24,994 bases of DNA from an uncultured Actinomycetes bacterium (GTDB lineage Bacteria > Actinomycetota > Thermoleophilia > Solirubrobacterales > 70-9). The notes beneath the pieces were generated by a model. It was given only the letters and a program-made list of their open reading frames with translations, had not been told where the DNA came from and ran no database searches. Location: NCBI GenBank assembly GCA_946479725.1, contig CAMLHB010000012.1:1-24994 (forward strand). Direction: 5' to 3'. A program made the translations under genes and the position numbers. Positions 5,247 to 22,033 of the stretch are shown piece after piece; the stretch's first letter is position 1, and the number at the start of each line of letters is the position of its first letter.

Positions 5247-6182
5247 ATGACCCCCAAAACTCGCCAGTCGCCTGCCTCGGGGGTTGCTGAGGATGTTCGG
5301 AGCGCCGAGACGTGGCGGCTCGCTCGGCGACAGCATTGGGTGATCGCGCGGACTCAGCTGCTGGCGCTGGGATTTTCTTCGGAAGCGATTCGACATCGAA
5401 TCGAGCGCGGTCGCCTGAACCCGGTGCGGCGGGGTATCTACTCCGTCGGGCGCCCCTCCCTCACCCAGCATGGCCGTTGGATGGCTGCGGTTCTGGCCTG
5501 TGGCGACGGCGCGGTCCTCAGCCATTCCAGCGCGGCGGCCTTGTGGCGCATTGGGTATGAGCGGCGCTCCGAGATAGAGCTCTCCCTACCCAGCCAGTCC
5601 CATCGCGAAGTTCCCGGCCTTCGGATTCATCGCAGGCCTTCGCTCGATGTCGAGCGAAGCACCGCCACGCGGCACCACATCCCGGTCACCACTCCCGTCC
5701 AGACCTTGATCGACATGACCCTCCGCCTCGACCGCCGCGGCGTCGAGCGGATGATCAACGAGGCGGACAAATACGACCTCGTCCACCCGCCCGGGCTGCG
5801 AAATGCCCTGGAGGAGCGAGTCGGAGAGTCCGGAGTAGCGAGACTCCGCCACATCCTCGACCGCCGCACCTTCCGCCTGACCAAAGAGGAGCTTGAACGG
5901 CGCTTTCTCCCCCTCGCCCGCAAGGCCGGGCTCCCCACTCCGCTCACCGGCCAGTGGCTCAACGACTTCGAAGTCGACTTCTACTGGCCCGAACTCGGTC
6001 TGGTCGTCGAGACCGACGGCTTGCGCTATCACCGCACGCCGGCCGAGCAGGCTCGGGACCGGCTTCGCGATCAGGCCCACACCGCCGCCGGCCTCACCCA
6101 GCTCCGCTTCACGCACGAGCAAGTTCGTTACGAACCCGACTATGTGGTGCGGATCCTTGCCGCAACCGCACGTCAGCTGTAG
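5247..6182 (+). CDS. AbiEi-like N-terminal domain fused to DUF559 (Vsr/PD-(D/E)xK-like) protein
   Basis: A 311-residue protein of an architecture common in high-GC actinobacteria. The N-terminal region, about residues 28-80, reads ARRQHWVIARTQLLALGFSS, then RGRLNPVRRGIYSVG. It resembles the winged-helix domain of AbiEi-type antitoxins (type IV toxin-antitoxin). The C-terminal region, about 210-311, resembles DUF559, a small endonuclease-like fold: E242-V-D244 then VVETDG (E255, D257), followed by RDRLRDQAHTAAGLTQLRFT. That residue pattern fits a PD-(D/E)xK core, so nuclease activity is possible but unproven. There is no AbiEii partner next to it, so a classical toxin-antitoxin pair is not seen. 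The gene stands alone between rplQ and the reversed truA, and its last 10 bases overlap the 3' end of truA. The ATG at 5247 is the only good start; no strong ribosome-binding site is seen. Confidence 0.75.
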   Translation: MTPKTRQSPASGVAEDVRSAETWRLARRQHWVIARTQLLALGFSSEAIRHRIERGRLNPVRRGIYSVGRPSLTQHGRWMAAVLACGDGAVLSHSSAAALWRIGYERRSEIELSLPSQSHREVPGLRIHRRPSLDVERSTATRHHIPVTTPVQTLIDMTLRLDRRGVERMINEADKYDLVHPPGLRNALEERVGESGVARLRHILDRRTFRLTKEELERRFLPLARKAGLPTPLTGQWLNDFEVDFYWPELGLVVETDGLRYHRTPAEQARDRLRDQAHTAAGLTQLRFTHEQVRYEPDYVVRILAATARQL

Positions 6183-11086: not shown

Positions 11087-12337
11087 ATGGGTGAAGTCGT
11101 AGACATCGAGTCCAAGCCGCGGAAGCGGAAGGGCCGACGCAAAAAGCCCTCGAAGACCGCCCTCGTGCTCGGCGGCGGCGGCTTCACCGGCGGCGTCTAC
11201 GAGATCGGCGCCCTCCGCGCCCTCGACCTGCTCGCCGTCAACAGCACGGTCAACAACTTCGACGTGTACGTCGGGACCAGCGCCGGCTCCTTTGTCGCCT
11301 CGATGCTGGCCAACGGGGTCACCCCCGAGGAAATGATGCAGGTGATCAATTCCGACGACGATCTGGGCCTCGAAGACCTCGACCTCGACAAGGTGCTGAA
11401 ACCCAACTACCTCGGTTTCCTCGCCAAAGGGGCCGCGCTGCCGCTGCGCTCGCTGGAGCTGCTGCGCTCGCTGGTCCGGATCGGCCAGTTCTCGGCGATG
11501 GACATCGGGGTCGGCCTCGCCGAGGCGCTGCCGACCGGCCTCTACTCGGGCTCGGGGATCGCCGACTACGTCGAAGACGCGCTCAGCGAAAGCGACCGGG
11601 TCAACGACTTCCGCCTTCTCGATCCCGAGCTCTACCTCACCGCCACCGATCTCGACACCTGCGAGCGGATCGTCTTCGGCGAGGACGGGTGGTCCGACGT
11701 GCCGATCTCCAAAGCAGTCGAGTGCTCGACCTGCCTGCCGATCGTCTACAAGCCGGTCGATCTGAAGGGGCGCCAGTTCGTCGACGGCGGCATCCGCTCG
11801 ACCACCAACGTCGACATCGCGGTCGAAAAGGGCGCCAAGTTCATCGTCGTCGTCAACCCGCTGGTCCCCTACGTCAATGACTTCGAGAAGACGATCCCGA
11901 CCGTCTTCGGCCGCCGCGTCCGCCGCGTCTCCGACATGGGCCTGCCGGCGATCGCCAACCAGACCTTTCGCCTCATCGCCCACGCCCGCCTGCACCAGGC
12001 GGTGGAGCAGTGGCAGGAGAAGTACCCCGGCGTCGACATCGTCCTGCTCGAGCCCCAGCCCAACGACGAGCTGATGTTCGGCACCCCGATCATGGACTAC
12101 TCGCGCCGCCTCAAGATCGCCCGGCACGGCTTCGAAACCGTCACCGCCGCCCTCGCCCAGGACTACGACCGCTACGCCGAGATCGCCGAGCGCCACGGCC
12201 TCGAAATCTCCGAGCGCCGCGTCCGCCGCGTCGTCGAAAAAGCCTCCGAAGAGGAGCCCGAGCAAACCTCCGCCTGGCGCCGCGTCCTAGAGCAGACCAC
12301 CTCGGTGCTGCTCAGGCAGTCCGGCGAGGCTTCTTAG
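11087..12337 (+). CDS. Patatin-like phospholipase
   Basis: A 416-residue lipid acyl hydrolase using a Ser-Asp dyad. The oxyanion glycine loop is ALVLGGGGFTGGVYEIGAL (residues 25-43), the nucleophile elbow is GTSAGS (Ser65), and the catalytic Asp is in VDGGIRSTTN (Asp233). A basic N-terminal stretch, residues 10-23, precedes the domain and could touch membranes or nucleic acid. The domain ends near residue 330, followed by a helical charged tail (RRVRRVVEKASEEEPEQ). No signal peptide is seen, so the protein is probably cytosolic or membrane-peripheral. Substrate is unknown; candidates are phospholipids or stored neutral lipids, and the acyl-CoA synthetase gene is 1.5 kb downstream on the other strand. 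It starts divergently from the carboxypeptidase gene with 71 nt between starts. Confidence 0.92.
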   Translation: MGEVVDIESKPRKRKGRRKKPSKTALVLGGGGFTGGVYEIGALRALDLLAVNSTVNNFDVYVGTSAGSFVASMLANGVTPEEMMQVINSDDDLGLEDLDLDKVLKPNYLGFLAKGAALPLRSLELLRSLVRIGQFSAMDIGVGLAEALPTGLYSGSGIADYVEDALSESDRVNDFRLLDPELYLTATDLDTCERIVFGEDGWSDVPISKAVECSTCLPIVYKPVDLKGRQFVDGGIRSTTNVDIAVEKGAKFIVVVNPLVPYVNDFEKTIPTVFGRRVRRVSDMGLPAIANQTFRLIAHARLHQAVEQWQEKYPGVDIVLLEPQPNDELMFGTPIMDYSRRLKIARHGFETVTAALAQDYDRYAEIAERHGLEISERRVRRVVEKASEEEPEQTSAWRRVLEQTTSVLLRQSGEAS

Positions 12338-12348
12338 CGGCCACGGCG

Positions 12349-12381
12349 CTACTTATCGCTACTTGCAATAATTGCAAGTAG
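12349..12381 (+). promoter_or_regulatory. Palindromic operator-like site at the AlbA_2 gene start
   Basis: A perfect 23-bp palindrome, CTACTTGCAAT (12359-12369), A, ATTGCAAGTAG (12371-12381), ends at the base before the ATG at 12382. An extra CTACTT half-site lies exactly 10 bp upstream (12349-12354). The palindrome centre contains AATAAT (12367-12372), a -10-like hexamer 9 nt before the ATG. A dimeric repressor binding here would block RNA polymerase, and the winged-helix protein encoded next is the obvious candidate. Confidence 0.7.
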
Positions 12382-13797
12382 ATGAGTACCGTTGATGCCG
12401 AAAGGGCTCTGAACGAGGTTTCCGCCCCTGACGTGGGGAGGGAGCTGCTGGACCTTGACGAGGATCAGTGGCTCGAGCGTAAGTCTGCCCGCATCTCGCC
12501 TCGGAGCCTCGCCGATACCTTGATCGGCTTTGCCAATGCGGATGGCGGGATCGTGGTTGTGGGCCTGCATGACGAAAAGATTGAGGGAACGGAGGCCAGC
12601 ACCTCGCGGCGAAATTCGCAGATGCAGGCGCATATCGACTTCTGCAGTCCGCCGGTGCGAGTTCGCCACAGGCTGGTCGAGTGCATCAACGAGGAAGGGG
12701 CGCCAGACAAGCTCTTGGCTATCGAGGTTGCAACGGGCGAGACCGTTCACGCCAACGGAAAGGACGAGGTTTACCTCCGGGTCGGCGACGAGAACCGCCG
12801 TCTCAGCTTTGTCCAGCGACAGGAGCTTCTCTTCGACAAGGGGCAAGCGACCTACGAGACCCGCCTTCTTGCCGGAGCGACCCTGGACGACCTCGAGCGG
12901 CCTTTGTTGGACGGGTACGCCGAAGCGATTGGCGCCCCCGATCCGCTGAGGTTGCTGAGGGCTAGGGGTCTCGCAGACGACTCTCAGCTGACCGTTGCGG
13001 GAGCCCTGCTGTTTGCGGCTTCGCCTCAGGAGTTTTTGCCGGAGGCGTTCCTACGGGTTCTGCGGTGGCGAGGGCGAGAGCGAGGGTCTGGCGCTCGACA
13101 GCAGCTCTTACAGGACACGCGTGTGGAGGGACCGATCCCAGAACAGCTGATGGTGGCGAGGAAGCATGTTCAGCGGTTGCAGCCCACCCGCCGCGCCCTG
13201 CAATCAGACGGCAGGTTCGGCGATGTTCCGCTGATTCCCGAAGATGCCTGGCTGGAGGGCATCGTCAACGCCGCTGTCCACCGTTCGTACAGTGCGGCTG
13301 GTGATCACATCAGGGTAGAGGTGTTTGACGATCGGATCGAGATTTCGAGCCCCGGAAGGTTTCCGGGCCTGGTGGATTTGAGCGAGCCCCTCGAGACGGT
13401 GCGATTTGCGCGCAATCCTAGGATCGCCCGCGTTTGCGCGGATCTCAATTTCGGCCAGGAGCTGGGCGAGGGAATCCGCCGCATGTTCGACGAGATGCGA
13501 CAGGCGGGGCTCACCGATCCGGCCTACCGCCAAACGGCGGGGAGCGTCGAGCTGACCTTGCTGGCGGAGCCGGTTGATCGCAGGCTGGAGGCGCGCCTGC
13601 CGGAGAACGCCCGTCGCATCATTGCTGCGCTGCGTGAGGGGGAACGGCTCAGCACGGGGGAGGTGGCAGAGGTGTTGGGCGTTTCGCGACCCGTGGCGCA
13701 AAAGGAGCTTGGCCGCCTCAGGGAGGCCGAGATCGTCGAATGGGTCGGCAACTCCTCGCGAGACCCAAGGGCGTACTGGCGCCTTCGGCCTACTTAG
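12382..13797 (+). CDS. AlbA_2 (Schlafen-like) / HATPase_c_4 / winged-helix ATP-binding protein
   Basis: A 471-residue protein with three recognisable parts. Residues about 25-150 form an AlbA_2 (Schlafen AAA_4-like) domain: WLERKSARIS (Glu32, Lys34) and LIGFANADGGIVVVGL. Residues about 285-400 match the HATPase_c_4 GHKL-like module: GIVNAAVHRSY (Asn296), FDDRIEISSPGRF, ARNPRIARV and GQELGEGIRRMFDEMRQAGL. Residues about 403-470 form a winged-helix DNA-binding domain: LSTGEVAEVLGVSRPVAQKE. Proteins of this build are annotated as putative transcriptional regulators; some family members are linked to phage defence, but the role of this one is unknown. Codon choice is mixed and less GC-biased than in the neighbours, suggesting acquisition. 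A palindrome sits at the start and related CTACTT repeats sit at the stop. It is isolated between patatin and the acyl-CoA synthetase. Confidence 0.85.
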   Translation: MSTVDAERALNEVSAPDVGRELLDLDEDQWLERKSARISPRSLADTLIGFANADGGIVVVGLHDEKIEGTEASTSRRNSQMQAHIDFCSPPVRVRHRLVECINEEGAPDKLLAIEVATGETVHANGKDEVYLRVGDENRRLSFVQRQELLFDKGQATYETRLLAGATLDDLERPLLDGYAEAIGAPDPLRLLRARGLADDSQLTVAGALLFAASPQEFLPEAFLRVLRWRGRERGSGARQQLLQDTRVEGPIPEQLMVARKHVQRLQPTRRALQSDGRFGDVPLIPEDAWLEGIVNAAVHRSYSAAGDHIRVEVFDDRIEISSPGRFPGLVDLSEPLETVRFARNPRIARVCADLNFGQELGEGIRRMFDEMRQAGLTDPAYRQTAGSVELTLLAEPVDRRLEARLPENARRIIAALREGERLSTGEVAEVLGVSRPVAQKELGRLREAEIVEWVGNSSRDPRAYWRLRPT

Positions 13798-13825
13798 AAC
13801 CTACTTGCAACTACTTGAAAGCAAG
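13790..13825 (+). repeat. CTACTT direct repeats at the 3' end of the AlbA_2 gene
   Basis: CTACTT occurs at 13790-13795 (including the start of the stop codon), 13801-13806 and 13811-13816, spaced 11 and 10 bp. The middle copy extends to CTACTTGCAA (13801-13810), identical to 12359-12368 at the 5' end. GCAAG at 13821-13825 can pair with CTTGC at 13804-13808. Whether these are protein-binding sites or the boundary repeat of an inserted segment cannot be decided from this window. Confidence 0.7.
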
Positions 13826-13852
13826 ACTTGAAACCCTGGGCGAGGCGCCGGG

Positions 13853-15637
13853 CTAAGCCGCGTAAAGCTGCTCGATCGCGTCTTCGTGCTTCTGGGCGAC
13901 GACGGCGCGCTTGACCTTCAGGGTCGGGGTCAGCTCGCCGGACTCCTGGGAGAGGTCGTGGGGGAGGATGGAGATCTTCTTGACCTGCTCGACGCGGGCG
14001 AAGTTCTGGTTGATCTTCTCGACGTGGGCTTCGAGAGCGGCCTTGACGTCGGGGTTCTGCGCGAGCTGGGCGGGGTCCTCGGGGAGGTTGTGCTCCTGGG
14101 CATATTTGACCGCCTCTTCGGGGTCGAGGGTGACCAGCGCCACCAGGTAGGGACGGCGGTCGCCGACGACGACGCACTGGGAGACCAGCGGGTGCTGCTT
14201 GATTTCGGCCTCGAGGTTGGCGGGGGTGATGTTCTTGCCGCCCGCGGTGATGATGATGTCCTTTTTGCGGCCGGTGATCTTGATGAAGCCGTCGGGCTCG
14301 ATCTCGCCGATGTCGCCGGTATGGAGCCAGCCGTCAACGATCGTCTCTGCCGTCGCCTCCGGGTTCTTGTGGTACCCCTGGAAGACGTTCGGCCCTTTGA
14401 CGAGGATCTCGCCGTCGTCGGCGATTTTCACCTCGCAGCCCGGGAACGGTTTGCCGATCGTCCCGACCTTGAAGTCCTCGGGGGTGGAGATCATCGCCGC
14501 GGTCGAGGTCTCGGTCATCCCCCAGCCCTCCAAGACAAGGACGCCGGCGGCGTCGAAGAAGCGGAGGATCTCGGGATTGATCGGGGCGGCGCCGGAGACG
14601 GCGAGACGGATGCGGCCGCCGAACAGGCCGCGGATTTTCGACAGCACTTTCTTGTCAGCGAAGTCGTACTGGCGCTGCAGCAGGAAACCGGGCTTGCGGC
14701 CCTCGCGTTCGGCCGCGCGCATCTTCTCGCCGACCTTGATTGCCCAGTTGAAGATCGCCTTTTTGGCGCCGCCCTCCTTCTCGATCGCGCTGGTCGCGGC
14801 GGTGTAGATCTTCTCGAAGATCCGCGGCACCGAGGGGAAGTAGGTCGGTTTCAGTTCGGCCAGGTTCGGGAGGATCTTCAGCGGGTCGCGCTCCCAGTAG
14901 GCGAGCGTGGTGCCGAGGTCGAAGGTGCCGAACTGGATCAGCAGGGCGAAGGAGTGGGCGAGCGGCAGGTAGAGGTAGGCGACGTCTTCGTCTTCGATGA
15001 CGCTGACCCCGTTGACCATGTTCAGCATCGCCCGGTAGTTGCCGTGGCTGATGATGCAGCCCTTCGGCGGCCCGGTCGTGCCCGAGGTGTAGATGAAGGT
15101 GCAGATGTCCTCCGGCGTCACCGCCTCGTACAGGGTCGCCCAGGTGGCGTCGTCGCCGCCGGTGCCCTTGGCCGCCAGGTCCTCCATCGAGATCGCGTCC
15201 TCGGCGCTGCCACTCATGAGCACGATCTGCTCCAGCTTCGGCAGCTGCTCGCGGACCGCCCGCACCTTCTCCAGCTGTTCGGCGTCCTCGACGACGACGA
15301 CCTTGGCGTCGGAGTTCTCGAGCACGTAGCGGCACTCCTCGGGGGAGTTCGTCTGGTAGATCGGGACCACGGTGGCGCCGATCGAGAGGGCGGCGAAGTC
15401 GAAGTAGGTCCACTCCGGCCGGGTGTTTCCGAGAATCGAGACGCGGTCGCCTTTCTCGACACCCAGGGTGACTAGGCCGAAGGCGAGGGGGCGAACGATC
15501 TCCCGCACGTCATCGAAGGTCTTGCTGACCCACTGCTCGCCTTCCTTGTAGCGGACGGCGACTTTGGAGCCGTACTGAGCGGCCGCTCGCGGCAGCAGGT
15601 CCGCAATCGTCTTCGAGTTGGTACCTCTCCCCGACAT
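13853..15637 (-). CDS. Long-chain acyl-CoA synthetase (AMP-forming)
   Basis: A 594-residue ANL-superfamily enzyme that activates fatty acids to acyl-CoA through an acyl-adenylate, normally at the inner face of the membrane. The ATP-binding P-loop is YTSGTTGPPKG (from residue 183). The A5 motif GWGMTETSTAAM and the A8 hinge DIGEIEPDGFIKITGRKKDI are complete, as is GGKNITPANLE after it. The C-terminal catalytic Lys region lies near ELTPTLKVKRAVV. The length of about 600 and the AEIKQHPLVSQCVVVGD segment fit the FadD15/long-chain subgroup rather than acetyl-CoA synthetase. ATG at 15637 opens with a typical SKTIADLLPRAAAQYG. A small HTH gene ends 18 nt upstream and may be cotranscribed. Confidence 0.95.
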   Translation of the reverse strand: MSGRGTNSKTIADLLPRAAAQYGSKVAVRYKEGEQWVSKTFDDVREIVRPLAFGLVTLGVEKGDRVSILGNTRPEWTYFDFAALSIGATVVPIYQTNSPEECRYVLENSDAKVVVVEDAEQLEKVRAVREQLPKLEQIVLMSGSAEDAISMEDLAAKGTGGDDATWATLYEAVTPEDICTFIYTSGTTGPPKGCIISHGNYRAMLNMVNGVSVIEDEDVAYLYLPLAHSFALLIQFGTFDLGTTLAYWERDPLKILPNLAELKPTYFPSVPRIFEKIYTAATSAIEKEGGAKKAIFNWAIKVGEKMRAAEREGRKPGFLLQRQYDFADKKVLSKIRGLFGGRIRLAVSGAAPINPEILRFFDAAGVLVLEGWGMTETSTAAMISTPEDFKVGTIGKPFPGCEVKIADDGEILVKGPNVFQGYHKNPEATAETIVDGWLHTGDIGEIEPDGFIKITGRKKDIIITAGGKNITPANLEAEIKQHPLVSQCVVVGDRRPYLVALVTLDPEEAVKYAQEHNLPEDPAQLAQNPDVKAALEAHVEKINQNFARVEQVKKISILPHDLSQESGELTPTLKVKRAVVAQKHEDAIEQLYAA

Positions 15638-17854: not shown

Positions 17855-20800
17855 GTGCGCCTTCTGGCTACGGCCCTGGCCTCCGCCCTGCTGGCTTTAA
17901 TCGCCCTCGCGGCTGCTGACTCGGCCTCGGCCACGAATCTCTGCACAAACGCCGGCTGCACCACCGTTTACCCGGTCGGCACGAAAGTCACCTACACGCT
18001 GAAAGCGGGCACCTCGATCCGCTTCACATCGGGCACCAGCACCCTCGGCACATGCACGGGTTCGACTATCAGCGGCAAAACGTCAAACGAAGCGGGTGCC
18101 ATCGTCTCCAGCAACATCGAAGAACTCACCTGGACCGGCTGCAGCCAGGTCACGAAAACGATCAAAAACGGCTCGCTGGCGATCGCGTGGAGCTCGGGGA
18201 CTAACGGCACCGTCTCCGGATCGGGGACCGAAGTCACAGTTTTCGTCTCCCTCTTCGGCACGAGCTGCACCTACGGCACCGGCGAAGGCACGACCCTCGG
18301 GACCTTGACCGGGGGAGAAGAACCGGTGCTCGTGGTCGCGGCCACGCTGAAAAAGATCGCCGGCACCTTCGTCTGTCCGGCCACCGTGGTCTGGGATGCC
18401 GAATACGTCATCACCGCCCCTCACGCGCTGTTCGTCGGCAAAGCGGGAGGCAATCAGGAATTCGTCACCAAGGAAGGGTGGGGGCAAGGGAACTCGGCAT
18501 CCCCGAACCTGGTCGGTTGCTTCACAGGCAATACGGTCAACTGCGCAACCGGCAACCTCGTTGAGGAACAGATGGATTTCGCGCTCGGCGGTCGCGGTCC
18601 CGCCCTCGCCGCCACCCGTGCCTACAACTCCCAGGCTGCCGCGGAAGCGAAAGAAGCGGGTCCCTTCGGCTACGGCTGGACCGGACCTTACGGCGCCCGT
18701 CTGGAAGTGAACAAAGAAGCCGGCATCGTGACCGTCTACCAGGGAAACGGCGCTGCCGCCGTCTTCTATCTCTCCGGCGCCACCTACGTCCCCGCCGCCT
18801 GGGGGCAGGCGACCCTGGTCAAGGAAGTGGTCGAAGGCAAAGACGTCTACCTCTTCACCCTGCCCAACCAGGAAAGGCTCAAGTTCAACTCCGAAGGGAA
18901 GCTGACGGAAGTAAGGGACCGCAACCTCAATCTCCTCACGCTGACCTACGTCGAAGGCAAGCTCAGCACGGTCAAAGACGGCGCCGGCCGCGAACTGAAA
19001 TTCGCCTACACCGGATCGCAGGTGAGCAGCATCGAAGACCCCTTGGGGCGCAAAGTCTCATATGGCTACGAAGCCGGAAACCTCATTTCGGTGACCCTCC
19101 CGGGCGTCGAAGCCGCACGCTGGAAATTCAAATACGACGCATCCCACCGGATGACCGAACTGACCGACGGGCGCGGGGGCGTGCAGAAACTCGAATACGA
19201 CGAAAAAGGCCGGGTCAAAACACAGACCGATCCGCTCGAACGCAAGACGAAATTCGAATACGGGGAAGCGGCCGGGAAAAGGACCTCCACGATCACCGAG
19301 CCGAATGGTGCGGTCCTCTACCAGACCTTCAACGAAGCCGGGGAGCCGCTGGAAGTGGTCGAAGCCAAAGGCACCGCCCTGGAAAGAAAAGCGGTCAGCG
19401 AATACAGCACCTCCTTTGCCTTGACCAAACTAACCGATCCCCTCAGTCACTCCACCACCTACGAATACGACGCCGAAGGCAACCGCACGCTCGCCAAAGA
19501 CGCCGAAGGCAATGAACGCAAATGGACCTACAACAAAACCCACGACATCGAAACCGAGACCACGCCCCGGGGCGAGAAAACGACGGCCAAACGCGACGCT
19601 CACGGCAACGTGGAAGCGATCGAACGACCCGGGCCCGCTGAAACCACGCAGAAACTCACCTTCAAACATGCCGAAAACGGCGATCTCGAATCGGTCACCG
19701 ATCCCCTCGGCCGTGAAACCAAATTCGAATACGACACCTACGGTGACCGCAAAGCGGAAACCGATGCCGAAGGCGACAAGAGGACTTGGACCTACGACAA
19801 AGACGGGCGGGTCGAAAGCGAGGTCAGCCCCCGCGGGAACGAAGAAGGAGCCGAAGCCTCCAAATTCACGACGACGGTGGAACGCGATCTGCAGGGGCGC
19901 CCGATCAAGGTCACCGATCCCCTCAAACACGAAACCAGCTACGCCTATGACGGGAACGGAAACCTCGAATCTCAGACCGACCCCAACAAACACGCGACGA
20001 AATACACCTACGATGCCGCCGATCAGCGGACGAAAGTCGAAGCGGCCAACGGGACGAAATCCGAAACCGCTTACGACTCGATGGGGATGGTCAAAAGCAG
20101 GACCAACGGCAACGGCAAAACGACCAAATACGAACACAACCTGCTCGAGCAGCTGACGGAAACGATCGATCCGCTGGAACGCAAGGTCACGCGGGAATAC
20201 GACGCCGCCGGCAACCTGGAAAAGCTCAAAGACCCCGAAGCCCGGACCACGACCTACAGCTACGACAAAGCCGACCGGCTCTTGAAAACGAGCTACTCGG
20301 AAGAAGCCACCCACGCGGTCGAATACGAATACGACAAAGACAGCAACGTCACGACGATGAAAGACGGGACCGGAACGACGAAACTGGTCTACGACGTTCT
20401 TGGCCGGCCGACGGAAGTCGAAAACGGGAACAAAGAACTCCTCAAATACGAATACGACCTCGCCAACCTCCCGACCAAAATCACCTATCCGAATGGGAAA
20501 TCGATCAGTCGCGAATTCGACAAAGCACTGCGCCTGACGAAAGTCACCGACTGGCTCGGCCGCTCGACCACCTTCACGTACAACCGCGATTCGCAGCCGA
20601 AAGCGACCGTCTTCCCCACCGAAGCGACCGACGAAGACGTGGCCGAATACAGCACGGCGGGAGAACTCAGCAAACAGACCTTCAAGAAGGGCTCGGAAAC
20701 GCTTGCCTCGCTTGCCTACACCCGCGACAGCGCCGGGCAGCTCGAATCGGTGACGCAGACGGGGCTGCCGGGGAGCGCGACGACGGCCTACGAATACGAC

Positions 20801-22033
20801 AAAGGGGACCGCCTGATCAAAGCGGGGGGCAGCGCCTACGAATACGACAACGCCGGCAACCCGACCAAAATCGGCACGACCACCTACGAATACGACGCTT
20901 CTTCAGAGCTGAAATCCGGCGGCGGCGTGACGTATTCCTTCGACAAATTGGGCGAGCGGACGAAAGCGGCGCCGGGGTCAGGGCCGGCCACCACCTACGG
21001 CTACGACCAAGCCGGGAACCTGATCTCGGTCAAACGCTCCGCCGAAGGCGAAGTCTCGAAAATCGAAGACTCCTACGCTTACGACGGCAGCGGGTTGCGG
21101 GAGTCCGAGACGATCTCCGGTACCACCAATCACCTCGCCTGGGACGTCGCCGAAGGGTCCCTGCTCTACGACGGCACCCGCTACTACATCTATGGGCCCG
21201 GGAGTCTGCCTTTCGAGCAGATCGCAGCCGAAACCCCCACCTATCTGCACCATGACCAACAGGGCTCGACGCGCCTCCTGACCAGCCAGGCAGGGACCAC
21301 CTCCGGCGCCTACACCTACACGGCGTATGGCTCAACCGAAGGCCACACCGGCACTGCCACGACCCCTCTTGGCTATGAGGGTCAGTACACCAGCTCGAAT
21401 ACCGGCCTGATCTATTTGGGGGCAAGCGTCTATGACCCGACGACGGCACAGCACATGAGCGGTGACCCTCAGGGGAAGGGGGGAGAAGGCTACGTTTTCG
21501 CAGGCGCCAACCCGCTGAACGGATCGGATTCGGGCGAAGCACAACCACCTCCCGAGGAGATTCAGTGGCAACCCGTGGTCTCGGAGTGGCGCCAAATCAA
21601 CGGGGTCGGCCACGAGGTCTGGGAGATTTACCACAAAGGCTCCCTGTACCGATTGATCAACGGATGGCTCTGGCGCTTCGTCGACAACGCCTGGGTTCTG
21701 GCTCCCTCTCCTCCGGGGTTTCCTGAGCCCGGCAAATTGGTGTTTCCCGACCATATCTGGGGCGCGGCGCCAGAGCGGCCCTTGCCGGCTCGCCTGTCGA
21801 TTTCGCCGAAACCGGTACCAGAGCCGTTCAACTATTCGTCCCTGGTGATCCCGCCCAGCGTCTGGACCCCTGGTCCAATTCCAGACCGGTTCCAGGGGAT
21901 CCTCGACTTCGCGGAGCGGCACATAGTCACGTTCAACGTGCCGAACAACCCGCGCATGAAAGGCGGGGGGTTCTCGATTGGGGTCGGAGTCCAAGTTCCG
22001 CTCCCCGTCTGGGGCTGGAGCAAACGAAGATAG
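17855..22033 (+). CDS. Secreted RHS/YD-repeat protein with unassigned C-terminal domain
   Basis: A 1392-residue exported giant. Residues 1 to about 27 form a signal peptide (RLLATALASALLALIALAAA then DSASA). Residues about 28-200 form a Cys-rich, Thr/Ser/Gly-rich domain. Residues about 215-330 resemble DUF6531 (GCFTGNTVNCATGNLVEEQM, then GPFGYGWTGPYG), the usual N-terminal partner of RHS. About 345-1100 is a long run of YD repeats (YEYDxxGN pattern, roughly 20-residue period). About 1130-1228 is the RHS core-like end (YLHHDQQGSTRLLTS, YGSTEGHTG, LIYLGASVYDPTTAQHM, NPLNGSDSGE). The final 164 residues match nothing I know. RHS shells encapsulate C-terminal toxins in other species; here that is inferred. 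No immunity gene follows. GAA and AAA codons dominate, unlike the ribosomal genes. GTG 17855 is preceded by AGAGGA. Confidence 0.9.
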   Translation: MRLLATALASALLALIALAAADSASATNLCTNAGCTTVYPVGTKVTYTLKAGTSIRFTSGTSTLGTCTGSTISGKTSNEAGAIVSSNIEELTWTGCSQVTKTIKNGSLAIAWSSGTNGTVSGSGTEVTVFVSLFGTSCTYGTGEGTTLGTLTGGEEPVLVVAATLKKIAGTFVCPATVVWDAEYVITAPHALFVGKAGGNQEFVTKEGWGQGNSASPNLVGCFTGNTVNCATGNLVEEQMDFALGGRGPALAATRAYNSQAAAEAKEAGPFGYGWTGPYGARLEVNKEAGIVTVYQGNGAAAVFYLSGATYVPAAWGQATLVKEVVEGKDVYLFTLPNQERLKFNSEGKLTEVRDRNLNLLTLTYVEGKLSTVKDGAGRELKFAYTGSQVSSIEDPLGRKVSYGYEAGNLISVTLPGVEAARWKFKYDASHRMTELTDGRGGVQKLEYDEKGRVKTQTDPLERKTKFEYGEAAGKRTSTITEPNGAVLYQTFNEAGEPLEVVEAKGTALERKAVSEYSTSFALTKLTDPLSHSTTYEYDAEGNRTLAKDAEGNERKWTYNKTHDIETETTPRGEKTTAKRDAHGNVEAIERPGPAETTQKLTFKHAENGDLESVTDPLGRETKFEYDTYGDRKAETDAEGDKRTWTYDKDGRVESEVSPRGNEEGAEASKFTTTVERDLQGRPIKVTDPLKHETSYAYDGNGNLESQTDPNKHATKYTYDAADQRTKVEAANGTKSETAYDSMGMVKSRTNGNGKTTKYEHNLLEQLTETIDPLERKVTREYDAAGNLEKLKDPEARTTTYSYDKADRLLKTSYSEEATHAVEYEYDKDSNVTTMKDGTGTTKLVYDVLGRPTEVENGNKELLKYEYDLANLPTKITYPNGKSISREFDKALRLTKVTDWLGRSTTFTYNRDSQPKATVFPTEATDEDVAEYSTAGELSKQTFKKGSETLASLAYTRDSAGQLESVTQTGLPGSATTAYEYDKGDRLIKAGGSAYEYDNAGNPTKIGTTTYEYDASSELKSGGGVTYSFDKLGERTKAAPGSGPATTYGYDQAGNLISVKRSAEGEVSKIEDSYAYDGSGLRESETISGTTNHLAWDVAEGSLLYDGTRYYIYGPGSLPFEQIAAETPTYLHHDQQGSTRLLTSQAGTTSGAYTYTAYGSTEGHTGTATTPLGYEGQYTSSNTGLIYLGASVYDPTTAQHMSGDPQGKGGEGYVFAGANPLNGSDSGEAQPPPEEIQWQPVVSEWRQINGVGHEVWEIYHKGSLYRLINGWLWRFVDNAWVLAPSPPGFPEPGKLVFPDHIWGAAPERPLPARLSISPKPVPEPFNYSSLVIPPSVWTPGPIPDRFQGILDFAERHIVTFNVPNNPRMKGGGFSIGVGVQVPLPVWGWSKRR

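Follow-up and report, generated by a model that had tools for sequence, protein, structure and literature searches.

Phased CTACTT repeats around an AlbA_2 gene in an actinobacterial genome: probable binding sites of the encoded protein within a probable mobile unit

Introduction

What does it mean that one short motif recurs at both the start and the stop of a single gene? The question is raised by a stretch of 24,994 nucleotides from an uncultured Actinomycetes bacterium (contig CAMLHB010000012.1, order Solirubrobacterales), referred to here as the window. Between a patatin gene and an acyl-CoA synthetase gene it holds a gene for a protein with an AlbA_2 domain, on both sides of which the motifs CTACTT and CTACTTGCAA are found. 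An initial annotation of the window offered two readings: the repeats bound a mobile single-gene unit, or both ends are binding sites that allow a loop. Here we compare the locus with its homologues, with gene-free sites in related genomes and with known mobile and autoregulated systems.

Results

The features of the locus are listed in Table 1. The two plus-strand copies of CTACTTGCAA reported by the initial annotation (12359-12368 and 13801-13810) were both found in place, as were the additional CTACTT copies described 10-11 bp upstream of each (12349 and 13790) and at 13811. In the gene-flanking regions CTACTT starts at 12349, 12359, 13790, 13801 and 13811, with spacings of 10, 11 and 10 bp. 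A third CTACTTGCAA, overlooked before, lies on the minus strand at 12372-12381, so that together with the copy at 12359-12368 it forms a perfect palindrome with the spacer TAA. The palindrome, CTACTTGCAA-TAA-TTGCAAGTAG (12359-12381), abuts the ATG at 12382, its last base standing directly before the start codon. Three phased half-sites are found at the stop of the 471-aa gene, and the first downstream CTACTT (13790-13795) covers the final codons and the stop itself (CCT ACT TAG); the repeats do, as had been claimed, adjoin both the start and the stop. The window contains 3 matches to CTACTTGCAA, where 0.01 are expected, and 13 to CTACTT, where 2.17 are expected; in either case the number was reached in 0 of 100 shuffles. 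Within the order, where the exact pattern CTACTTGCAAN{1,6}TTGCAAGTAG matches in only 1 of 232 genomes, the exact operator is therefore not a repeat that genomes commonly contain. The single match (Patulibacter G003, locus L004) sits beside that genome's own AlbA_2 gene.

Table 1. Coordinates of the features in and around the gene, as positions in the window
Feature	Position	Strand	Basis
Left neighbour, patatin-like phospholipase, host gene	11087..12337	+	PF01734
Putative inserted unit, largest extent, absent from compared relatives	12338..13844	+	alignment to the gene-free relative L103 breaks off at 12337 and is taken up again at 13845
Upstream single half-site CTACTT, 10 bp ahead of palindrome	12349..12354	+	sequence matches
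Operator-like palindrome CTACTTGCAA-TAA-TTGCAAGTAG, ends at start codon	12359..12381	.	sequence matches; kept in homologues
471-aa gene, SLFN_AlbA_2 + HATPase_c_4 + winged helix	12382..13797	+	ORF, Pfam; structure model pLDDT 87
SLFN_AlbA_2 domain, aa 27-141	12460..12804	+	PF04326, E 5.5e-15
HATPase_c_4 domain, aa 307-393	13300..13560	+	PF13749, E 1.1e-22
Winged helix-turn-helix, aa 408-453	13603..13740	+	HTH_20, HTH_24; MarR/ArsR-like fold
Recognition helix, aa 436-448, with site-covarying residues 440 and 442	13687..13725	+	structure model; mutual information
Downstream half-site 1, CTACTTAGAA, overlaps stop codon	13790..13799	+	sequence matches
Downstream half-site 2, CTACTTGCAA	13801..13810	+	sequence matches
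Downstream half-site 3, CTACTTGAAA	13811..13820	+	sequence matches
Possible degenerate fourth half-site, ACTTGAAA	13826..13833	+	candidate, read from the letters
Right neighbour, AMP-binding (acyl-CoA synthetase) gene, convergent	13853..15637	-	PF00501

According to Pfam the protein contains SLFN_AlbA_2, HATPase_c_4 and winged-helix domains in an order like that of PDB entry 3LMM. This structure is that of DIP2311 of Corynebacterium diphtheriae, a structural-genomics protein to which the identity is about 21-24% and which a passage of PMC8780604 describes as a protein of unknown function. In structure comparisons residues 1-398 match 3LMM and residues 402-471 match MarR/ArsR folds, and the fold of the AlbA_2 domain is that of Schlafen proteins. 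Schlafen ribonucleases have three acidic active-site residues. In an alignment of 21 rows E27 is invariant, position 32 is E or D, and a candidate third acid near residue 64 varies; in comparison with the core domain of the mammalian Schlafens SLFN5, SLFN11, SLFN13 and SLFN14, a third acidic residue would not be present in all rows, and the other domains differ as well. The Pfam and NCBIfam matches of the protein include no transposase or recombinase family. It has no methyltransferase or restriction enzyme domain either, and its neighbours in the window are the patatin and AMP-binding genes. PADLOC matched the protein to pAgo over residues 45-401, a range that extends past AlbA_2; because some pAgos carry an AlbA_2 domain, as stated in a passage of PMC6299218, the match is taken to reflect common domains. 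The family has many members: of 7996 candidates scored, 2981 proteins match at E <= 0.001, and among the 120 matches listed the only names are 'ATP-binding protein' and 'ATP-dependent DNA helicase RecG'. The gene is indeed less GC-biased than its neighbours, as had been noted: its G+C is 0.638 versus 0.665 and 0.650, and at third positions 0.744 versus 0.921 on both sides. Elsewhere the window encodes a protein with AbiEi_4 and DUF559 (5247-6182), by eye amid ORFs resembling ribosomal-protein and housekeeping genes, and a 1392-aa RHS-repeat protein with DUF6531 (17855-22033).

A genome scan yielded 62 loci, to which more were added from the order of genome G001 and from the genus Corynebacterium. 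The assembled set, a subset of the fetched loci, comprises 92 loci, with the window and two phage copies among them; 68 were left at <90% protein identity. A palindrome with ACT..AGT arms was found in 48 of these 68 start regions, the other 20 failing the rule, and in 4 of the 620 regions of these loci that served as controls. Downstream half-sites were counted as CTACTxxNA within 306 bp at the stop, for the 53 loci in which an operator could be recognised and the sequence was long enough. There were 111 of them, or 2.09 per locus versus a background of 0.066, with at least one in 33 loci and none in 20. The phasing recurs: 76 of the 95 same-strand CTACT spacings below 40 bp are 10 or 11 bp. 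Among the neighbouring ORFs of at least 110 aa, none is common to more than 3 other loci. A TGACCTG box was also seen near the gene ends (21 of 65 loci, e.g. L033, L035 and L014, versus 29 of 406 control windows); it is frequent in the Corynebacterium repeat described below and is present at the gene-free site L134.

The site sequence varies between lineages. Across the operators of the 92 loci most of the variation among half-sites was seen in the two positions that follow CTACT, so that the phylum may use a small alphabet of site types. In 74 of 111 cases the dinucleotide xx of a downstream half-site equals that of the operator at its locus (mean 18.8 and maximum 45 in 5000 shuffles, with kinship uncorrected). 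The agreement is in part this high because in many loci the upstream region is present a second time downstream: where a 16-mer is common to both flanks (24 loci), 61 of 86 downstream sites agree with their own operator. The 29 loci without such a 16-mer, the window included, are the fairer test. Twelve of them have sites (0.86 half-sites per locus over all 29), and 13 of the 25 sites agree, versus a shuffle mean of 5.9; as 13 was reached in 12 of 5000 shuffles, the agreement is still unlikely by chance.

The same dinucleotide was compared with the columns of the protein alignment by mutual information, for the 45 loci whose dinucleotide is clear and belongs to one of five types, again with kinship uncorrected. 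Residue 440, in the recognition helix, ranks 1 among the 471 columns and residue 442 ranks 4; ranks 2 and 3 are taken by columns 144 and 5, both outside the helix. Where the sites are of TG type, as in the window, residue 440 is Q or R and residue 442 is E; CT-type sites mostly occur with an aliphatic residue 440 and with Q, H or R as residue 442, and CG-type sites with R440 and mostly A442. Because downstream and upstream sites agree and the recognition helix covaries with them, the protein probably binds these sites.

Presence of the gene (E <= 1e-40) and of the patatin gene (E <= 1e-80) was scored in the 232 genomes of the order, which gave 13 and 166 carriers, respectively. Fifteen of 30 fetched patatin loci were compared with the window. 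Twelve align on both sides of a gap, the patatin gene adjoining the acyl-CoA synthetase gene without an AlbA_2 gene, and the remaining three stop short of the second gene. The two closest relatives, with a patatin 94% identical, are among the 12 gene-free loci, and the 13 carriers include neither of these two genomes; in G001 the patatin site is empty and an AlbA_2 gene lies on another contig. The gene was probably inserted between the patatin and acyl-CoA synthetase genes, judging from this comparison. As no clear target duplication was seen by eye around the window copy, the insertion is deduced from presence and absence between species, and CTACTTGCAA is not a target repeat. The initial annotation had expected an empty site with one CTACTTGCAA copy between the two genes. 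None of the 12 gene-free junctions has one, and CTACTT itself is absent from all of them, which rules out CTACTTGCAA as the target repeat. The initial annotation had also named two findings that would speak against its proposal: empty sites without the repeat, which is what these relatives have, and homologous genes lacking the downstream copies, where the outcome was the opposite, copies of the own motif being present in the 33 of 53 loci mentioned above. By eye, GGCGAGGC on both sides is at most a candidate for a degenerate target duplication in the window. The spacer between the patatin and acyl-CoA synthetase genes varies in length among relatives, up to ~700 bp (L104, L107, L108, L111, L117), and by eye some of these spacers contain long inverted repeats.

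Duplications were found at other loci. In 27 of 66 loci an exact 16-mer occurs both in the 150 bp before the gene and in the 300 bp that follow it, versus 1 of 463 within-locus and 4 of 780 between-locus controls; some of these flank repeats include the sites and others are host DNA. In Promicromonospora (L024) the last part of the upstream gene, stop codon included, is duplicated around the gene over 24 bp, and this segment occurs once at the gene-free site L134. In Jiangella (L022) ~60 bp are duplicated that occur once at four of seven relatives, gene-free at this site and aligned on both sides (L246, L247, L248 and L250); in L249 the target also occurs once, with a different sequence upstream, L251 has the gene, and L252 lacks an upstream alignment. 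In Actinomyces (L036) ~91-108 bp are duplicated that are single at the gene-free L221 and L225, the duplicated segment being itself an imperfect host inverted repeat. The distance from the left repeat to the first, loosely defined half-site is 5-18 bp in five of six loci (267 bp in L048), and that from the stop codon to the right repeat is 2-22 bp in five of six (184 bp in L036). In L024 and L022, where just 6-7 bp separate the stop codon from the repeat, there is accordingly no downstream array. In L011 the C-terminal coding tail of the gene is duplicated upstream. By eye, a palindrome-plus-array segment lies downstream of the gene in L036 and upstream of it in L025, at the same chromosomal site, as if the arrangement were permuted or left from an earlier insertion.

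In several species of Corynebacterium a repeat of ~100 bp, made up of a half-site array, the TGACCTG box and the palindrome, is found on both sides of the gene. Among 161 Corynebacterium genomes the repeat query matches 23 (E <= 0.001, some matches being weak) and the protein 33 (E <= 1e-25, three being distant at ~30% identity). The site after one conserved host gene was examined in 10 of 30 fetched loci, from genomes that may be incomplete: it is empty in L257, holds a solo repeat in L253, repeat, gene and repeat in L254, and two repeats without the gene in L255, and L256 and L258-L262 have no half-sites there. L175 has a 37-residue remnant of the C terminus of the gene between two repeats. 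L167 is a solo repeat in genome G343, which is outside the 33 protein carriers, with the same reservation as to completeness. In G365 (L160/L255) the host gene end and the 100-bp repeat occur twice, ~630 bp apart, with no AlbA_2 match between.

The protein matches 19 annotated phage records, namely 9 Gordonia and 2 Mycobacterium phage Squirty records at about 51-52% identity and 8 unclassified faecal records (24-38% among the 4 matches listed). Among viral contigs no relative was confirmed, and plasmids gave 3 distant matches (29-35%). In both phages that were examined the gene lies near an integrase gene, and its start is preceded by the palindrome or by one half of it. Gordonia sibling phages hold HicA/HicB, RelB/RelE or other small genes in the corresponding region, and all four siblings lack a matching half-site in about 9 kb; as far as these sequences go, the pattern fits a swappable cargo gene. 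The Gordonia phage Nymphadora is mentioned as a target phage in a passage of PMC6426606.

Discussion

The reading that we consider most likely, and on the whole probable, is that the motifs are the cognate sites of the protein encoded between them, its own operator and an end array, and that gene and sites together form one compact mobile unit. Directly visible in the sequences are the layout, the covariation of upstream with downstream sites and of the site dinucleotide with the recognition helix, the gene-free sites and, in relatives, the duplicated host DNA and the solo repeats. On this basis the C-terminal winged helix would bind CTACTTGCAA half-sites, as a dimer on the palindrome abutting the start codon. 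There it would repress itself by obstructing its promoter or the start of translation. Downstream, binding on the 10-11-bp-phased half-sites would be cooperative, and the unit (at most 12338-13844) would have entered the site at which the patatin and acyl-CoA synthetase genes converge. Binding and autorepression we infer from the site and helix patterns, and mobility by insertion with a long variable target duplication is suggested by analogy with what is reported for restriction-modification genes. More tentatively, the end activity may be that of a Schlafen-like effector acting on nucleic acids, gated by the ATPase domain and kept as defence or selfish cargo. The two initial readings would then each be partly right and mutually compatible. 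Binding sites at both ends are favoured by the two covariations; a mobile single-gene unit is favoured by the gene-free sites as well as by the host DNA duplications and solo repeats of other genera, but the part of that reading that made CTACTTGCAA the target repeat does not stand.

The gene might instead be that of an autoregulated regulator, passed on by ordinary horizontal transfer, and its flank repeats would then be left by tandem duplication and deletion rather than by insertion. The duplicated coding tail in L011 and the remnant between two repeats in L175 are what such events would leave, and the phage copies suggest carriers; the duplicated sequence in L024, L022 and L036, however, is host DNA that is single at the gene-free sites of relatives, which makes this account doubtful. 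It is possible, though in our view unlikely, that the protein drives its own movement, the unit being an autonomous single-gene transposon of a new kind whose AlbA_2/ATPase/winged-helix protein binds the end sites and catalyses insertion through long staggered cuts. The one-gene unit with sites at both ends, the AlbA_2 domain with its Schlafen fold, the repeats lying close to the unit in five of six loci on either side and the solo repeats, as expected after excision, all agree with it. Yet the Pfam and NCBIfam matches hold no transposase or recombinase family, the duplications are long and variable, downstream half-sites are absent from 20 of the 53 operator-bearing loci, L024 and L022 are duplicated without a downstream array, and the boundary rule is broken by L048 (267 bp) and L036 (184 bp). 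Equally improbable is a new class of autonomous single-gene elements, spread over Actinobacteria and some of their temperate phages, whose Schlafen-fold/ATPase/winged-helix protein would recognise arrays of its own half-sites at both ends, drive insertion with long variable target duplications and excision to solo repeats, and have a recognition-helix code co-evolving with the ends.

That the palindrome works as a hairpin in the mRNA leader and hides the start codon is very unlikely. The segment 12338-12400 does form a stem that includes the start codon (-30.5 kcal/mol, z -6.17), but the half-site recurs downstream singly and as direct repeats, where the fold is at chance level (z 0.38), the CTACT core is kept in the arms, and the recognition helix covaries with the variable site positions. 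Chance repeats around a gene of unusual composition, which its lower third-position G+C might suggest, have a negligible probability in view of the 3 copies of CTACTTGCAA versus 0.01 expected and the recurrence of the pattern in homologues.

The unit of gene and cognate sites, to return to the preferred reading, resembles several known systems in part. Restriction-modification gene units reportedly insert with long target duplication (Nobusato in 2000, Furuta in 2010). In passages of PMC3031569 and PMC3874152, the insertion of restriction-modification genes with long variable target duplications is described, the latter giving their length as 'in the order of 100 bp'. As in those descriptions, the present units are compact and have no known transposase, and in the relatives L024, L022 and L036 the duplications are long and variable; unlike them, they consist of a single gene without methyltransferase or restriction enzyme, have putative cognate sites at both ends and show solo repeats. 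From insertion sequences and DNA transposons they differ by the lack of a transposase or recombinase domain and, in relatives, by duplications of 24, ~60 and ~91-108 bp that are not short and fixed. With autoregulated toxin-antitoxin and C-protein operators they share a helix-turn-helix regulator and a palindrome at its own start, and one phage copy lies in a region where sibling phages carry HicA/HicB or RelB/RelE; unlike two-gene toxin-antitoxin systems, they have no conserved partner among ORFs of at least 110 aa. Among the best matches in the literature, with subscription papers mostly outside the search, no title or abstract concerned these sites or the mobility of this gene.

The finding would link a large protein family to a defined DNA target and, through the covarying helix positions, to a probable code for protein-DNA specificity at the level of residues. 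The gene-free, solo-repeat and occupied sites in related species constitute a natural system for studying the movement of single genes with long target duplications, of the kind reported for restriction-modification genes.
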